Shown: in pieces, positions 11,492 through 20,461 of the stretch
Position numbering within the stretch: the first letter of the stretch is position 1
How the letters are laid out: the number at the start of each line of letters is the position of its first letter
From: Alistipes sp.
Lineage (GTDB): Bacteria > Bacteroidota > Bacteroidia > Bacteroidales > Rikenellaceae
Reading direction: 5' to 3'
Length of the DNA: 42,317 nt
NCBI GenBank assembly: GCA_017935185.1
Contig: JAGBIC010000025.1
Location: 1-42,317 of the forward strand
Translations under genes and position numbers: made by a program
The notes under the pieces: model-generated
Seen by the model: the letters and a program-made list of their open reading frames with translations, nothing else
What the model was told of the DNA's origin: nothing
Databases searched by the model: none

Positions 11492-13426
11492 ATGAACAAC
11501 TACGGGTTTGTAAAAGTTGCTGCTGGCGTACCGACAATTTCGGTCGCAGATTGCAATCATAACGCACAACAGATTATCACACTGATGCAGGAGGCTTCGG
11601 CAAAGGGTGTAAAAATTATAGCATTCCCCGAACTCTCGCTTACAGGATGCACATGCGGGGATCTTTTCCTGCAACCTCTTCTACATAAGAGTGCAGAGCA
11701 GGCCCTCATGCAGATTGTTGAAGCAAGTGCAGATTTGTCGCTGGTTGCTGTTGTAGGCCTGCCATTAAAGGTGGGGAGTTTCCTATACAATTGTGCTGCC
11801 GTGCTCTCTCAGGGCATGCTTATCGGTATCGTTCCAAAAAGTCACATAAGCCACAGCAGTGAACGTAATGAGTTGCGTTACTTTAGTTCTGGGGGTAACG
11901 TTGCTGCCGAAGAGATTGAGGTGGCCGGATTCACCGTACCTTTTGGCATGGATTTGAGTTTTGCGATAGACGGAGTTCAGTTCGCCGTTGAGATTGGCGA
12001 AGATGCCACTGCACCTATCCCGCCATCTACACTGCAATCAGCATATGGTGCCAAACTCATCCTTAACCCCATGGCCAAAGCGATAGAGGTTGGCGGATAC
12101 GAATACCTATCATCTCTAATCGTCGCACATTCAAGGCGTTGCACAACCGCTTATATAACAGCCATGGCAGGTTTCGGAGAATCCTCAACCGACTTGGCAT
12201 ATGGGGGCGGTGCTATGATAGTCGAAAATGGGCACACGCTTGCTTACGCATCGCATCACAGTCTTGACAAACAACTTATTATTGCAGATGTAGACACCCA
12301 ACTTCTCGAGTACCGACGTCTGCTAAATAATATTGCGGGTTGCAATATTGAACTACCCGACTATCGACGATTTGACATATTTTCACCCATCGACGCCCCC
12401 GAGCAAGAGGTTAATTTCGACAGAGATGTCGATCCAATGCCTTTTGTGCCATCTGTAAATGCGGAACGCGCTGCAAGATGCAAGGAGGTATTTGAAACAC
12501 AATGCCTTGGGCTTGCAAAGCGCCTTCGCCACACATCTTGCAAGAGTGCCGTTATAGGCATTTCGGGCGGTCTTGATTCTACATTGGCTTTGCTGGTAGT
12601 GGCAAAAAGTTTCGACATGCTGGGGCTTGACCGGAAAGGGATAACCGGCGTTACCATGCCGGGATTCGGAACAACCGATCGAACATATCAGAATGCTGTT
12701 ACGCTGATTAAAGAGTTAGGTGTTACTTTCCGCGAAATTCCAATTGCTAAAGCATGCCACCAGCATTTCGAGGATATAGGACTACCCGAAGGCGACCATT
12801 CGGTTACATATGAAAATGCCCAAGCGCGCGAACGCACACAGATACTTATGGATGTGGCCAATATGACCGGAGGCATGGTAATCGGCACAGGCGACATGAG
12901 TGAGTTGGCACTCGGCTGGGCCACATACAATGGCGATCAGATGTCGATGTATGGGGTAAATGCCTCTGTTCCCAAGACATTGGTACGACAGATTGTCAAT
13001 TGGGCCGCAGCAACAGAGGAAAACGCCAAAGTGCAAAAGGCATTGATAGATGTCGTAGATACTCCTGTCAGCCCGGAGCTTCTGCCCGCAACCGAGAGTG
13101 GAGATATAGCGCAAAAGACCGAAGATCTGGTGGGGCCGTATGAGTTGCACGATTTCTTTATCTACAATTTCTTGCGACAAGGATTCACGCCATCGAAGAT
13201 ACTATTTTTGGCTGAACATGCGTTTAATGGGGTGTACGACCATGCAACCATAGTCAAGTGGCTAAAGATTTTCTTCCGTCGCTTCTTTGCTCAGCAATTC
13301 AAACGTTCTGCAATGCCTGACGGGCCCAAGGTCGGCAGCGTAGGACTATCGCCTAGAGGCGATTGGCAAATGCCGTCAGACGCATCTGCCAAAGCATGGC
13401 TTACAGAGTGTGAAATATTAAATTGA
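11492..13426 (+). CDS. nadE: Two-domain NAD+ synthetase, glutaminase site altered
   Basis: A 644-residue cytosolic enzyme that amidates deamido-NAD to NAD. The N-terminal nitrilase-type domain (1 to about 290) normally releases ammonia from glutamine; the C-terminal domain holds the ATP loop GISGGLDSTLAL (356-367). In the glutaminase domain the first catalytic residue Glu47 (FPELSLTG) and Lys116 (IVPKSHI) are kept, but the nucleophile cysteine is gone: the usual ICEDLW reads IGEDAT, giving Gly169 (codon 11996-11998). The rest of this stretch (PIPPS) and the synthetase domain (GTGDMSELALGW) look intact. The reading frame is unbroken. It is therefore probably ammonia-dependent in practice. Third gene of the pepT series. 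Confidence 0.9.
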   Translation: MNNYGFVKVAAGVPTISVADCNHNAQQIITLMQEASAKGVKIIAFPELSLTGCTCGDLFLQPLLHKSAEQALMQIVEASADLSLVAVVGLPLKVGSFLYNCAAVLSQGMLIGIVPKSHISHSSERNELRYFSSGGNVAAEEIEVAGFTVPFGMDLSFAIDGVQFAVEIGEDATAPIPPSTLQSAYGAKLILNPMAKAIEVGGYEYLSSLIVAHSRRCTTAYITAMAGFGESSTDLAYGGGAMIVENGHTLAYASHHSLDKQLIIADVDTQLLEYRRLLNNIAGCNIELPDYRRFDIFSPIDAPEQEVNFDRDVDPMPFVPSVNAERAARCKEVFETQCLGLAKRLRHTSCKSAVIGISGGLDSTLALLVVAKSFDMLGLDRKGITGVTMPGFGTTDRTYQNAVTLIKELGVTFREIPIAKACHQHFEDIGLPEGDHSVTYENAQARERTQILMDVANMTGGMVIGTGDMSELALGWATYNGDQMSMYGVNASVPKTLVRQIVNWAAATEENAKVQKALIDVVDTPVSPELLPATESGDIAQKTEDLVGPYELHDFFIYNFLRQGFTPSKILFLAEHAFNGVYDHATIVKWLKIFFRRFFAQQFKRSAMPDGPKVGSVGLSPRGDWQMPSDASAKAWLTECEILN

Positions 13427-14946: not shown

Positions 14947-16242
14947 ATGGATAAGTTTCAACCTACCAACTACACCCTTATGTGTGTAGCAAACGGCCGC
15001 CAGTTCGAGGACACGGGCTGGGTGCTTGAAGATCGCACATGCGAGCAACCCTCGCTGGTACGCGCAATTTATGAGAACAAGAGACTCACTCTTAAGGGTG
15101 ATGATTACGGTTTCTATAAATTCTGTGATTGGTTGCCAATCAAGCGACTGCTCAAGGGTTCGGCTGCTCCCGTGACATTCCGCAGCGAAAAGCTGGCTGC
15201 TCATTTGGGATTGAAGAATCTCTATATCACACTCAACGGCTATTCACCCAAGCATGGTGCAAAGATGTCTACATGTTCGTTCAAGGAGACTGAGGCATAT
15301 AGCGTATGTGGCCGTATGGGAGAGGAGGAGAAACGTATTCTCGTGGTTGCATCGGCAGGAAACACCGCTCGCGCATTTGCAAAGGTATGCTCTGAAAACA
15401 ACATTCCTCTTTTGCTATCGGTACCGGCCGACAACCTTTCGGCTTTATGGTTTGAGAAACCTCTGAATCCATGTGTAAAACTTATCTGCTGCGCAGAAGG
15501 CGGAGATTACTTCGATGCAATTCGTTTGGGCGATTTGGCACTTAAATCACCTATGTTCTATGCAGAGGGTGGTGCCAAAAATATTGCACGCCGCGACGGT
15601 ATGGCAACCACAGTTCTTTCGGCAACAACTACAATAGGTCAAATTCCCGACTACTATTTCCAGGCAGTAGGCAGCGGAACAGGCGCTATCGCAGCATGGG
15701 AGGCCAACCAGCGCTTGATTGAGGATGGCTCTTATGGCAACACCATGATGAAACTTATGGTATCGCAGAATGCTCCGTTTGTACCCATGTATGACGCATG
15801 GCGTGCCGATTCGCGAGCGATGCTTCCTTATGATGCCGACAAGGCCCGCCGCGATGTGATGATTATCGATGCCAAGGTGCTCTCTAATCGTAAGCCTCCT
15901 TATGGTTTGCGTGGTGGTTTGTATGACACTTTGAAGGCTACCGATGGTGAGATTCTTGTAGCTACAAATGCCCAGGCTCGTAAGGCTGCAAAACTTTTTG
16001 AGGAGCTGGAGGGTATCGACATCCATCCTGCCGCCGCAGTTGCAACAGCGACCCTTATCAAGGCTGCACAAGATGGCAAAATTGACCCCGAGAAGATTGT
16101 TATGTTGAACATCACCGGAGCTGGCGAAGAGAGATTCAAGCGCGAGCACGAGATTGTATATCTGCAACCCGAAAAGGTGTTCCCTCTCGATGTTGAGGCC
16201 GACGAGGTAATAGCTGCTGTGGAAGAGATGTTTGCAGAGTAA
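14947..16242 (+). CDS. Cysteate synthase-like PLP enzyme (threonine synthase paralogue)
   Basis: A 431-residue cytosolic fold-type II PLP enzyme. The PLP lysine is in TCSFKETEAYSV (Lys113), the phosphate-binding turn follows at ASAGNTARAF, and a second glycine loop is AVGSGTGAIAAWE. Generic annotation would say threonine synthase, but KFCDWLPI, the NLYITLNGYSP segment, TCSFKETEAY and EGGAKNIARRDGMATTVLSA resemble the methanogen-type cysteate synthase, which joins O-phosphoserine and sulfite to give L-cysteate. In Bacteroidota cysteate is the head-group precursor of sulfonolipids (capnine, sulfobacin). No acyltransferase or reductase of that pathway is in the window. manA follows 32 bp downstream. 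I favour cysteate synthase, with threonine synthase as the alternative. Confidence 0.78.
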   Translation: MDKFQPTNYTLMCVANGRQFEDTGWVLEDRTCEQPSLVRAIYENKRLTLKGDDYGFYKFCDWLPIKRLLKGSAAPVTFRSEKLAAHLGLKNLYITLNGYSPKHGAKMSTCSFKETEAYSVCGRMGEEEKRILVVASAGNTARAFAKVCSENNIPLLLSVPADNLSALWFEKPLNPCVKLICCAEGGDYFDAIRLGDLALKSPMFYAEGGAKNIARRDGMATTVLSATTTIGQIPDYYFQAVGSGTGAIAAWEANQRLIEDGSYGNTMMKLMVSQNAPFVPMYDAWRADSRAMLPYDADKARRDVMIIDAKVLSNRKPPYGLRGGLYDTLKATDGEILVATNAQARKAAKLFEELEGIDIHPAAAVATATLIKAAQDGKIDPEKIVMLNITGAGEERFKREHEIVYLQPEKVFPLDVEADEVIAAVEEMFAE

Positions 16243-18825: not shown

Positions 18826-18930
18826 GTTATTTTTTGCGATAATTACACTATCTTTACACAACAATCAGCCATAACCCAGCAACAGCATCCTACTATAATG
18901 TACCACAGAGCTTTACACAAAACATATTTG

Positions 18931-19722
18931 ATGTACGCGACCAAATTTATAATACTCTTGGCCGCAATCGTCACCGTTGGATGCAAGGGGTTTGCTTTGC
19001 CGGAATCGGACAGCAACATCCCGCAAGCCACCAACATCACAATCGCCGACCTTCACAAGCTCCTAAACGGCAAAACATTGGACATTACTCACGACATTAT
19101 CATAGGAGGTTATGTAACCTCAAGCGATGAAGAGTCGAACTTCTATAAAAGTTTCTGCATCGAGGATGCCACGGGTGGAGCAGAGATTATGGCCGGACTA
19201 TATGATTTGCACAACATCTACCCCAAAGGGTGCTACGTTACAATCTCGCTCAACGGATGCAGCGTAGGAGAGCATTATGGGGTTATGCAGATAGGGCTTA
19301 AAGCCTCGGAATACGACTACTATCCTACATCATATTTCGCCACTCGTGCCATTTTGGATCGACACATCACACGATACGACATTTTCAAGCAGATTCCGCC
19401 ATTACCCACAGCCATTGCAGACCTCAACACCTCGCAATGCGGCAGTTTGGTAAACATCGGACACCTACGCCTTGCAAGCAAAGAGTATCAGGACGTTTGG
19501 GAGATGAACACCGACGGCTGTTGGCTAGGCTATAACATTTTCGCCGATAACGACGGCAACACAATAGCCATACACACCTCCGATTATGCCGACTATGCCA
19601 AACACACAATACCTGATGGCACGGTGGCAATCAGCGGCATACTGCAATTAGGCAAAATTATGGGCAAAGAGTTTTTTATGATTAAGATGAGCCATGAGAA
19701 GGATTGCATACCTATTGATTAG
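18931..19722 (+). CDS. DUF5689-domain lipoprotein 1
   Basis: A 263-residue predicted lipoprotein. I start it at 18931 (MYATKFIILLAAIVTVGC); the lipobox cysteine is residue 18. After a short linker, the TNITIADLHKLLNGKTLDITHDIIIGGYVTSSDEESNFYKSFCIEDATGGAEI stretch is the core of the Bacteroidetes DUF5689 domain, an OB-like fold also seen in surface proteins of this phylum. A second beta-rich half follows (VNIGHLRLA... GTVAISGILQLG). Its role is unknown. The downstream DUF5689 gene begins 29 bp before this gene ends, so the two are translationally linked. It is divergent from the MscS gene. Confidence 0.75.
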   Translation: MYATKFIILLAAIVTVGCKGFALPESDSNIPQATNITIADLHKLLNGKTLDITHDIIIGGYVTSSDEESNFYKSFCIEDATGGAEIMAGLYDLHNIYPKGCYVTISLNGCSVGEHYGVMQIGLKASEYDYYPTSYFATRAILDRHITRYDIFKQIPPLPTAIADLNTSQCGSLVNIGHLRLASKEYQDVWEMNTDGCWLGYNIFADNDGNTIAIHTSDYADYAKHTIPDGTVAISGILQLGKIMGKEFFMIKMSHEKDCIPID

Positions 19723-20461
19723 CCTTATATTGCTAATATACCCTTCGGCCTGCAATAAGTCGAATGGCGATTTCGATTTGCCACCATACAACACCATAAG
19801 TATTGCCCACCTTAAGAGCATGGCAACCAGCTCTTCACGCATAATAGCTGATGACATTGCCATTGAGGGTTACATCCTTGCCAATGATCTGTTTGGTGAA
19901 TTTTATAAAAGCATAATCCTGTGCGACGACTCCGGTGGTATTGAGATTCTGGTCGATACCGAAAATAGCGCAGTGGAGTTTCCCGTCTTTACACATCTTA
20001 CGGTATTCTGTTCATCGCTATACATCGGCAATTATGGCGGGAAAATAGAACTTGGCACAAAGCCGACGGGCGCTTACAACATCAACCACATAGCCAAAAG
20101 CGACTTTACGCGCTTCTTCAAACTCGACAAAACCAACATCAAAGATATCAAAGCTCAAAGAGTGACTATCGACGCTATCACGCCACGCCACTCAGGCAAT
20201 TATATCCGCTTGGAAGATGTAACTTTCGGGACTCAAGCAGGAATGACGTGGTGCGACACCGACCCCGAGAACGGGAATCCAATCACCACTGAACGCACAA
20301 TCAGCGACAGAGATGGAAACACATTGGTTGTGCGAGTTTTATCCCACTATGCTTATGGCAACAAGAAAATTCCATCAGGCTATGGGAGTATTCAGGGTGT
20401 GGTAGAGTATTTCAATAACAAACCGTCGCTTCGTATCGTAAACAACAACTACGATTTCTAA
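19694..20461 (+). CDS. DUF5689-domain lipoprotein 2
   Basis: A 255-residue predicted lipoprotein with a hydrophobic signal and a lipobox cysteine at residue 20 (IYPSAC). The domain follows the same plan as its upstream neighbour: TISIAHLKSM, IADDIAIEGYILANDLFGEFYKSIILCDDSGGIEILVD, then a second half with VTIDAITPRHSGNYIRLEDVTF and GSIQGVVEY. The two proteins are clearly related but diverged, suggesting an old tandem duplication. The start codon is inside the 3' end of the first gene. It ends at a bidirectional terminator facing obgE. Function unknown. Confidence 0.78.
   Translation: MRRIAYLLISLILLIYPSACNKSNGDFDLPPYNTISIAHLKSMATSSSRIIADDIAIEGYILANDLFGEFYKSIILCDDSGGIEILVDTENSAVEFPVFTHLTVFCSSLYIGNYGGKIELGTKPTGAYNINHIAKSDFTRFFKLDKTNIKDIKAQRVTIDAITPRHSGNYIRLEDVTFGTQAGMTWCDTDPENGNPITTERTISDRDGNTLVVRVLSHYAYGNKKIPSGYGSIQGVVEYFNNKPSLRIVNNNYDF

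Follow-up and report, generated by a model that had tools for sequence, protein, structure and literature searches.

Glycine in place of the glutaminase cysteine in NAD synthetases of Alistipes: probable ammonia-dependent NAD synthesis in a lineage with a proposed retreat from glutamine

The window analyzed here is a stretch of 42,317 nucleotides, contig JAGBIC010000025.1 of Alistipes sp. (assembly GCA_017935185.1), and belongs to a 1.81-Mb draft metagenome bin of 49 contigs that is 75% complete. It encodes a long, two-domain NAD synthetase, NadE, in which the catalytic cysteine of the nitrilase-type glutaminase domain is replaced by glycine. We consider it probable that NAD synthesis in this bacterium depends on ammonia, as one element of a stepwise retreat of the whole lineage from the use of glutamine as the amide donor. 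This reading builds on the residues that are gone, on the recurrence of their loss among relatives, on a change of evolutionary rate specific to one domain, and on the finding that the assembled genome contains no intact NadE, all of them visible in the sequences. The gene and its parts are as follows.

11492..13426, forward strand: nadE, long form; 644 amino acids (aa), two-domain NAD synthetase whose nitrilase-type glutaminase domain lacks the Cys (NF002730 and Pfam).
11492..12346, forward strand: N-terminal nitrilase-type glutaminase domain, residues 1-285, for which a loss of catalytic function is predicted (PF00795 at residues 9-272; faster evolution in Gly lineages).
11630..11632, forward strand: codon of Glu47, the triad glutamate, retained.
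11837..11839, forward strand: codon of Lys116, the triad lysine, retained.
11855..11872, forward strand: counterpart of the YRE loop (Tyr127-Glu132 of Mycobacterium tuberculosis NadE), residues 122-127, located from alignments.
11996..11998, forward strand: codon (ggc) of Gly169, which replaces the nucleophile Cys.
12419..13405, forward strand: C-terminal, NH3-using synthetase domain, residues 310-638, strongly conserved (PF02540 at residues 335-507; invariant columns; median omega 0.06).
12563..12580, forward strand: SGGLDS pyrophosphate-binding loop of the synthetase domain, residues 358-363.

NadE converts ATP and deamido-NAD to an adenylate, which is then attacked by ammonia; in the ordinary two-domain enzyme this ammonia comes from glutamine and arrives via a tunnel. 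The nitrilase triad is Glu-Lys-Cys, and the motifs and catalytic residues of glutamine amidotransferases (GATases) are called below by their usual names. The reading frame at 11492-13426 is open throughout, and its product scores 827.5 bits against a cut-off of 473 with NF002730 (PRK02628), with additional Pfam matches to NAD_synthase and CN_hydrolase. An earlier note on this DNA had claimed that Cys is replaced by Gly169 in an open frame with Glu47 and Lys116 still present, and had located the motif at 11990-12025. The reading of the frame and the alignments bear this out: the coordinates span the motif correctly, and the sequence around residue 169 (Gly, ggc) is EIGEDATAPIPPS. By HMMER, residues 3-640 align with chains of M. 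tuberculosis NadE (tbNadE; 6ofc and 3sdb) with an E-value of 2.5e-136. The note had also suggested an alignment with homologs; in the one made here Gly169 falls under the Ala of these chains, that is, native position 176 and the site of the C176A mutation (counted on the alignment, with a two-residue offset), and no other Cys occupies the nucleophile position of tbNadE. Glu47 and Lys116 align with the Glu and Lys of the family. In the counterpart of the YRE loop, which in tbNadE touches glutamine and gates the ammonia tunnel according to PMC6946656, Ser122 stands in place of Tyr127 and Arg125 in place of Phe130; Glu127, the equivalent of Glu132, is retained. In the synthetase domain S358, G359, G360, D362, and S363 are invariant in an alignment of 27 sequences, and the other conserved residues are present.

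The same replacement recurs in the genus. In what follows, G-numbers denote genomes and L-numbers loci of this analysis, G000 being the window's genome. We searched 180 Alistipes genomes and read the long-NadE site in 165 of them, finding Cys in 133, Gly in 32, and no other residue, so that the position singled out by the earlier note for inspection in close relatives proves to be Gly repeatedly; in the 15 genomes where the long site was unread, the short form of the enzyme (see below) was read in 11 and neither form in four. All 32 Gly genes are stop-free across 612-644 residues, and the codons of 33 distinct Gly genes are GGC (18), GGT (12), GGA (2), and GGG (1). Among the 80 best named relatives, most of which carry the label Alistipes or Rikenellaceae, 67 loci have Cys and 13 have Gly, and a ruminant sample appears in the record title of 12 of the 13 Gly loci versus 29 of the 67 Cys loci.

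On an 85-row tree of long NadEs, built by a quick method with the motif columns excluded and no bootstrap, the Cys/Gly label changes at least five times, four of the changes being forced by starred branches. These rows were left from 173 after removal of sequences shorter than 590 residues or without Cys or Gly at the site and then of near-copies (at least 85% identity for Cys rows, at least 97% for Gly rows). Rows with Gly fall into five clades, of 4, 11, 10 (the window's), 5, and 2 members, and the single row L141; on the assumption that a lost Cys never returns, the tree would imply six losses, with Gly the end state each time. L141 comes from a goat-cecum record with the label Bacteroidaceae; its nucleophile position is Gly (EMGEDLW), and it groups outside Alistipes on the tree, an independent loss. 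In G009 the long NadE (L043) is split over two open frames of 324 and 609 aa, by a frameshift or an assembly fault.

Changes elsewhere in the protein are concentrated in the glutaminase domain. We compared 32 Gly with 42 Cys long NadEs of Alistipes, with ten outgroup rows and L141 excluded. Seven residues that are invariant in the Cys enzymes (Tyr122, Glu124, Phe125, Glu170, Trp173, Ser194, and Lys202) are scattered in the Gly enzymes; many other N-domain positions are retained, among them Glu47 in 31 and Lys116 in 26 of the 32. Gly169 is the sole N-domain site fixed in the Gly set yet different from, or unconserved in, the Cys set. Mean entropy in the Gly versus the Cys set is 1.62 versus 1.19 bits for the N domain, and 0.79 versus 0.87 for the C domain. 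On a fixed topology the ratio of N- to C-domain branch lengths is 2.06 for Gly branches and 1.09 for Cys branches, and among close pairs the N and C domains have median omega values of 0.196 and 0.06 in Gly enzymes (17 pairs) and of 0.096 and 0.102 in Cys enzymes (1412 pairs), where branches and pairs are non-independent and many dS values are near or above 1. These figures indicate that the glutaminase domain has changed faster in the Gly lineages, still under purifying selection, and that the synthetase domain has been well kept, which is the pattern that losing one of two activities should produce.

The window's genome has a second, short NadE on a separate contig (G000:C23:1783-3363; L169, L002), a two-domain protein of 527 aa that likewise has Gly at the nucleophile position. 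Short NadE was matched in 175 of the 180 genomes, including every one of the 70 with a completeness of 90% or more and a contamination of 5% or less; it was read in 73 of them, and Gly was found in all 73. Rescue by the second NadE was rejected on this count. Beyond Alistipes, the short form also has Gly in L199, from the only Rikenellaceae genome read outside the genus, and 27 other Bacteroidales short-form sequences have Cys. A loop of the type LLPxYDxFDEYR, present in Cys short forms, is missing from those of Alistipes. The short-form tree requires two label changes, and the N/C ratio is 1.80 for Gly versus 1.25 for Cys branches. In another Bacteroidales family, the short NadE L215 (G227) has TIGNDLL replacing the Cys motif, another independent loss. 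A Rikenellaceae genome of another genus with a Cys-less short NadE, G292, has a NAD_synthase match in a 311-aa frame (G292:C2:136818-137561), perhaps a single-domain NadE.

The two enzymes account for the only two full NAD_synthase (PF02540) matches in the window's genome. A third match covers 36 positions in a 402-aa frame with 26.9 bits, over the Pfam cut-off, and is taken for another enzyme sharing the ATP-binding loop; a homology search with the long NadE yielded no third relative at E <= 0.001 in this 75% complete genome. Since the short NadE shares the predicted defect of the long one, the cell should rely on free ammonia to make NAD. In 24 genomes the site could be read in the long and the short form alike, with Gly in each, and the short form was unread in eight more genomes with a Gly long form; G001, G014, G015, and G082, which are 92-96% complete, also have Gly in both. 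Twelve of the 180 genomes have no long-NadE match at E <= 1e-100, including G124 (96% complete), G116 (90%), and G074 (97%, with a partial one). In G124 and G116 the Gly-bearing short form is the only full PF02540 match, and a Cys-less NadE therefore appears able to serve as the cell's only NAD synthetase.

Judging by the sequences, the loss of Cys is not confined to one enzyme: it has several origins within Alistipes, and other glutamine amidotransferases are altered in the same genomes. Class I glutaminase domains (PF00117) were searched in 13 genomes, 11 of them Alistipes. The CarA nucleophile, read in ten Alistipes, is Cys in G177, G064, and G007, Ser in G000, G014, G015, G082, and G003 (loci L380, at G000:C27, L378, L379, L381, and L382), Asp in G124 (L402), and Asn in G030 (L403); no PF00117 match to CarA was obtained in G109 and G292. 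For PyrG, read in 13 Alistipes, the triad is intact in G177, G064, G007, G124, and G109; the nucleophile is Gly in G000, G014, G082, G003, G131, and G135 and Asn in G081 (altered loci L384, at G000:C42, L383, L386, L387, L475, L476, and L468), and in G015 (L385) Cys is retained and the triad His is changed to Asn. PyrG of G030 gave no PF00117 match, and in an additional reading 3 of the 20 stretches picked actually contained PyrG.

GuaA is full-length with the motif GVCYGAQ in G177, G064, G007, G124, G109, and G292, and with GICYGAQ in G055. In G003, G014, G015, G082, and G030 (L392, L394, L395, L396, and L412) it is a short protein of 440-471 aa without the GVCYGAQ motif, in which the GATase match is limited to the first 76 of 190 positions. 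Across the genus, 62 of the 156 classified Alistipes genomes have the short and 94 the full type, the classes being split at a gap in E-value (full <= 3.1e-43, short type >= 9.1e-40), with six short-type genomes lacking a listed length, three having cut frames, G093 having a 513-aa frame, and G009, a weak match, placed under "not found". The long NadE has Gly in 27 of the 58 readable short-GuaA genomes versus 4 of the 87 readable full-GuaA genomes, a contrast uncorrected for shared ancestry. No GuaA match at the cut-off was found in the window's genome, which means little given its 75% completeness.

PurF begins with ...EECGVFG in G177, G064, G007, G164, G124, G143, G020, and G002, and with MSVLGVYG, without the N-terminal catalytic Cys, in G003, G006, G028, G029, G030, G113, and G116 (L444, L445, L446, L447, L455, L457, and L438). 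The class II domain (PF13522; PurF, GlmS) had no match in G000, G014, G015, and G082, nor in 400 kb of one G015 contig. As a control, PF13522 matched PurF but no GlmS in G064 (99% complete) and G124; the absence of a match in the window's clade is therefore more informative for PurF than for GlmS.

Arranged as a series, these genomes suggest an order of losses, although the order is read without a species tree and one group, clade A (G018, G095, G109, and G111), lies outside any single series. In an ordinary Alistipes (G177) only the short NadE site would have been lost among the enzymes read. G124 would add the loss of CarA and has no long NadE gene, and G030, with the long NadE Cys retained, would add the losses of CarA, GuaA, and PurF. 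The last stage would comprise G003, G014, G082, and the window's genome: both NadEs, CarA, and PyrG would have lost their sites, GuaA would be shortened (the window's genome gave no match), and PurF is Cys-less or was not found. It seems likely that the lineage has switched off most of its amide-transfer glutaminase sites, so that NAD, pyrimidine, and purine synthesis run on free ammonia and glutamine is kept for a few reactions (PurL, HisH), the window's genome belonging to the most advanced part.

Under the preferred reading, the NadE of the window would still adenylate deamido-NAD and aminate the adenylate in its synthetase domain. Its own ammonia production would be lost, the nucleophile Cys being Gly and the glutamine-binding loop degraded, and ammonia would enter the enzyme from the cytosol. 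We infer the loss of glutamine-dependent activity and the use of free ammonia from these changes; the same retreat would also have hit CarA, PyrG, GuaA, and PurF. Feeding by ammonia is chemically plausible, since there are precedents in human NadE, for which PMC6946656 gives a kcat/Km of 0.49 for NH3 and 0.45 for glutamine (per s per mM) and a Km for NH3 of 42 mM, and in human CPS1, in which the glutaminase Cys is replaced by Ser and ammonia is taken from the surroundings, as described in PMC4655335. External ammonia can also serve GMP synthetases of the two-domain type in vitro, according to PMC10526850. A Km as high as that of human NadE would be a problem at low ammonia. The cause is probably a steady or plentiful supply of ammonia in the gut habitat; one study of mixed rumen cultures with peptone gives net ammonia-N of up to 9 mM (PMC10499230). 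As for the choice of residue, PMC5871853 describes the Cys of class I glutaminases as sitting at a nucleophile elbow, with a backbone conformation that is disallowed. Should nitrilase-type NadE contain a similarly strained turn, Gly may be the easiest replacement; the Asn, Asp, and Gly of CarA and PyrG would fit this idea, Ser less so.

Several observations weigh against this picture. The genome is 75% complete, and genes for another NadE or for a partner glutaminase may lie in the missing part, although the more complete G001, G014, G015, and G082 likewise have Gly in both forms. Five of the 17 close Gly pairs, including all three of the window's clade, have N-domain omega values of 0.057-0.088 (the Cys median being 0.096), although the N/C branch-length ratio of that clade is 1.98. 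In the short form Glu41 is retained in all 75 Gly rows, Lys108 in 74, and Gly141 in all 75, and the constancy of Glu41 and Lys108 appears to exceed the needs of a dead pocket. The use of glutamine has not been wholly given up, since PurL has retained the Cys at all 29 loci read (30 genomes; one without a match), HisH in all four Gly-lineage genomes read (G000, G014, G015, and G082), and GlmS in G003, G030, and G113, as well as in G177. Finally, clade A combines a Gly long NadE with full-length GuaA, and PyrG is intact in G109, the sole one read, which indicates that the losses are not one package. The hisH gene of the window's genome (L393, G000:C13:10369-10935) itself has an in-frame TAG before the part that bears the triad His in relatives.

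The earlier note had proposed that the enzyme needs either free ammonia or a partner glutaminase. Its statement that the glutaminase is lost, the synthetase kept, and ammonia drawn from outside holds on the evidence of the sequences; the partner option is weakened. Such supply in trans, by a separate glutaminase or by the glutaminase domain of another protein, as in the two-subunit arrangement of Thermus thermophilus, would have a parallel in the two-subunit glutamine-using NAD synthetases described in PMC3376133. The C-terminal region of the synthetase is retained, with many invariant columns at 597-636, and the same source links an extended C-terminal loop with glutaminase partnering. Nevertheless, the only other full NAD synthetase in the genome is Cys-less as well, the homology search with the long NadE gave no third relative at E <= 0.001, the position of a partner is still taken up by the enzyme's own glutaminase-type domain, and no glutaminase gene was recognized among the 28 window proteins scanned, all but a few of its open reading frames (eight with Pfam and NCBIfam, ten with NCBIfam only, ten with Pfam only); we regard trans supply as very unlikely. 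Only slightly less improbable is that the long NadE of the Gly lineages is a decaying duplicate, or out of NAD synthesis, with the short paralog alone making NAD. Genomes with the short form only do exist, and the N domain does evolve faster, but all 32 Gly genes are stop-free, the synthetase omega is about 0.06, its motifs are invariant, and the NCBIfam score is far above the cut-off. The short form being Cys-less too, the conclusion about ammonia would be unchanged even if the long NadE were decaying.

That the retained Glu-Lys-Gly pocket has acquired a new role, such as glutamine sensing or ammonium entry to the tunnel, is unlikely but deserves more weight. The constancy of its residues in the short form and of Gly169 in 32 of 32 long forms speaks in its favor, as does an N-domain omega far below 1 that in the window's clade is as low as in Cys enzymes; against it, the long form has lost the Lys in 6 of 32 cases, the loop residues are drifting, and strain at the nucleophile turn could alone fix Gly. 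An assembly or sequencing artefact, to which a 49-contig bin of this completeness might be thought prone, has almost no probability: Gly169 is not a lone sequencing error, because it is shared by 32 genomes with four different Gly codons, and coordinated loop changes surround it. Sequencing error was rejected on the recurrence and the codons.

Glutamine is described in PMC3376133 as the general amide donor of the cell, free ammonia being scarce. Ammonia-using forms are generally taken as scattered exceptions. If the proposed retreat is real, one lineage has converted several unrelated amidotransferases, of different folds and through different residues, to the use of ammonia, and would provide a natural experiment on when glutamine coupling repays its cost. 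It makes testable the role of habitat ammonia in determining the donor, the resistance of PurL and HisH to the change, and the purifying selection on a dead glutaminase domain. There is also a consequence for annotation: models named "glutamine-hydrolyzing" accept CarA and PyrG from the window's genome, as well as the GuaA of G003, above their curated cut-offs, and such annotation by family models can be wrong. Elsewhere in the window, 14947-16242 encodes a PALP enzyme matching the cysteate synthase model TIGR03844 (467 bits versus a cut-off of 324.9), and 18898-20461 contains two overlapping open reading frames (274 and 255 aa) with M949_1556 family lipoprotein matches, both below the cut-off.

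We found no report of a Cys-less two-domain NadE, or of such a multi-enzyme loss, in the open-licence full-text literature, which is weak evidence of absence. Among known systems, the window's NadE is closest in build to tbNadE (3dla, 3sdb, 6ofc) and the glutamine-dependent family NadE-Gln (NF002730), with the same two-domain order at full length, the same length class, and the synthetase motifs retained. It departs from them in having Gly169 for Cys176, and hence no complete Glu-Lys-Cys triad, and Ser and Arg for Tyr127 and Phe130 of the YRE loop, which serves glutamine contact and tunnel gating; glutamine use is presumably lost. The laboratory mutant tbNadE C176A, crystallized with glutamine and an intermediate analogue present (PMC6946656), is altered at the same residue, but the change in the window is natural, is to Gly, has been repeated, and is accompanied by loss of the glutamine loop. 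In its predicted donor, free ammonia, the enzyme resembles type N, the NH3-dependent NadE with a single domain that PMC3376133 describes, for example from Salmonella. Type N, however, has no glutaminase domain, whereas the window's NadE keeps a full-length nitrilase-type domain and the C-terminal region and appears to descend from the two-domain form through loss of catalysis, not absence of the domain. The nearest functional parallel is CPS I of ureotelic vertebrates, as presented in PMC4655335: a glutaminase-like domain is kept without its Cys beside an intact synthase domain, the use of ammonia being a prediction in our case, and the CarA of five Alistipes has undergone the same change of Cys to Ser as human CPS1. 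The fold (CPS I has a class I GATase) and the pathway are different, and what befell one enzyme there seems to have affected several in one bacterial lineage here.

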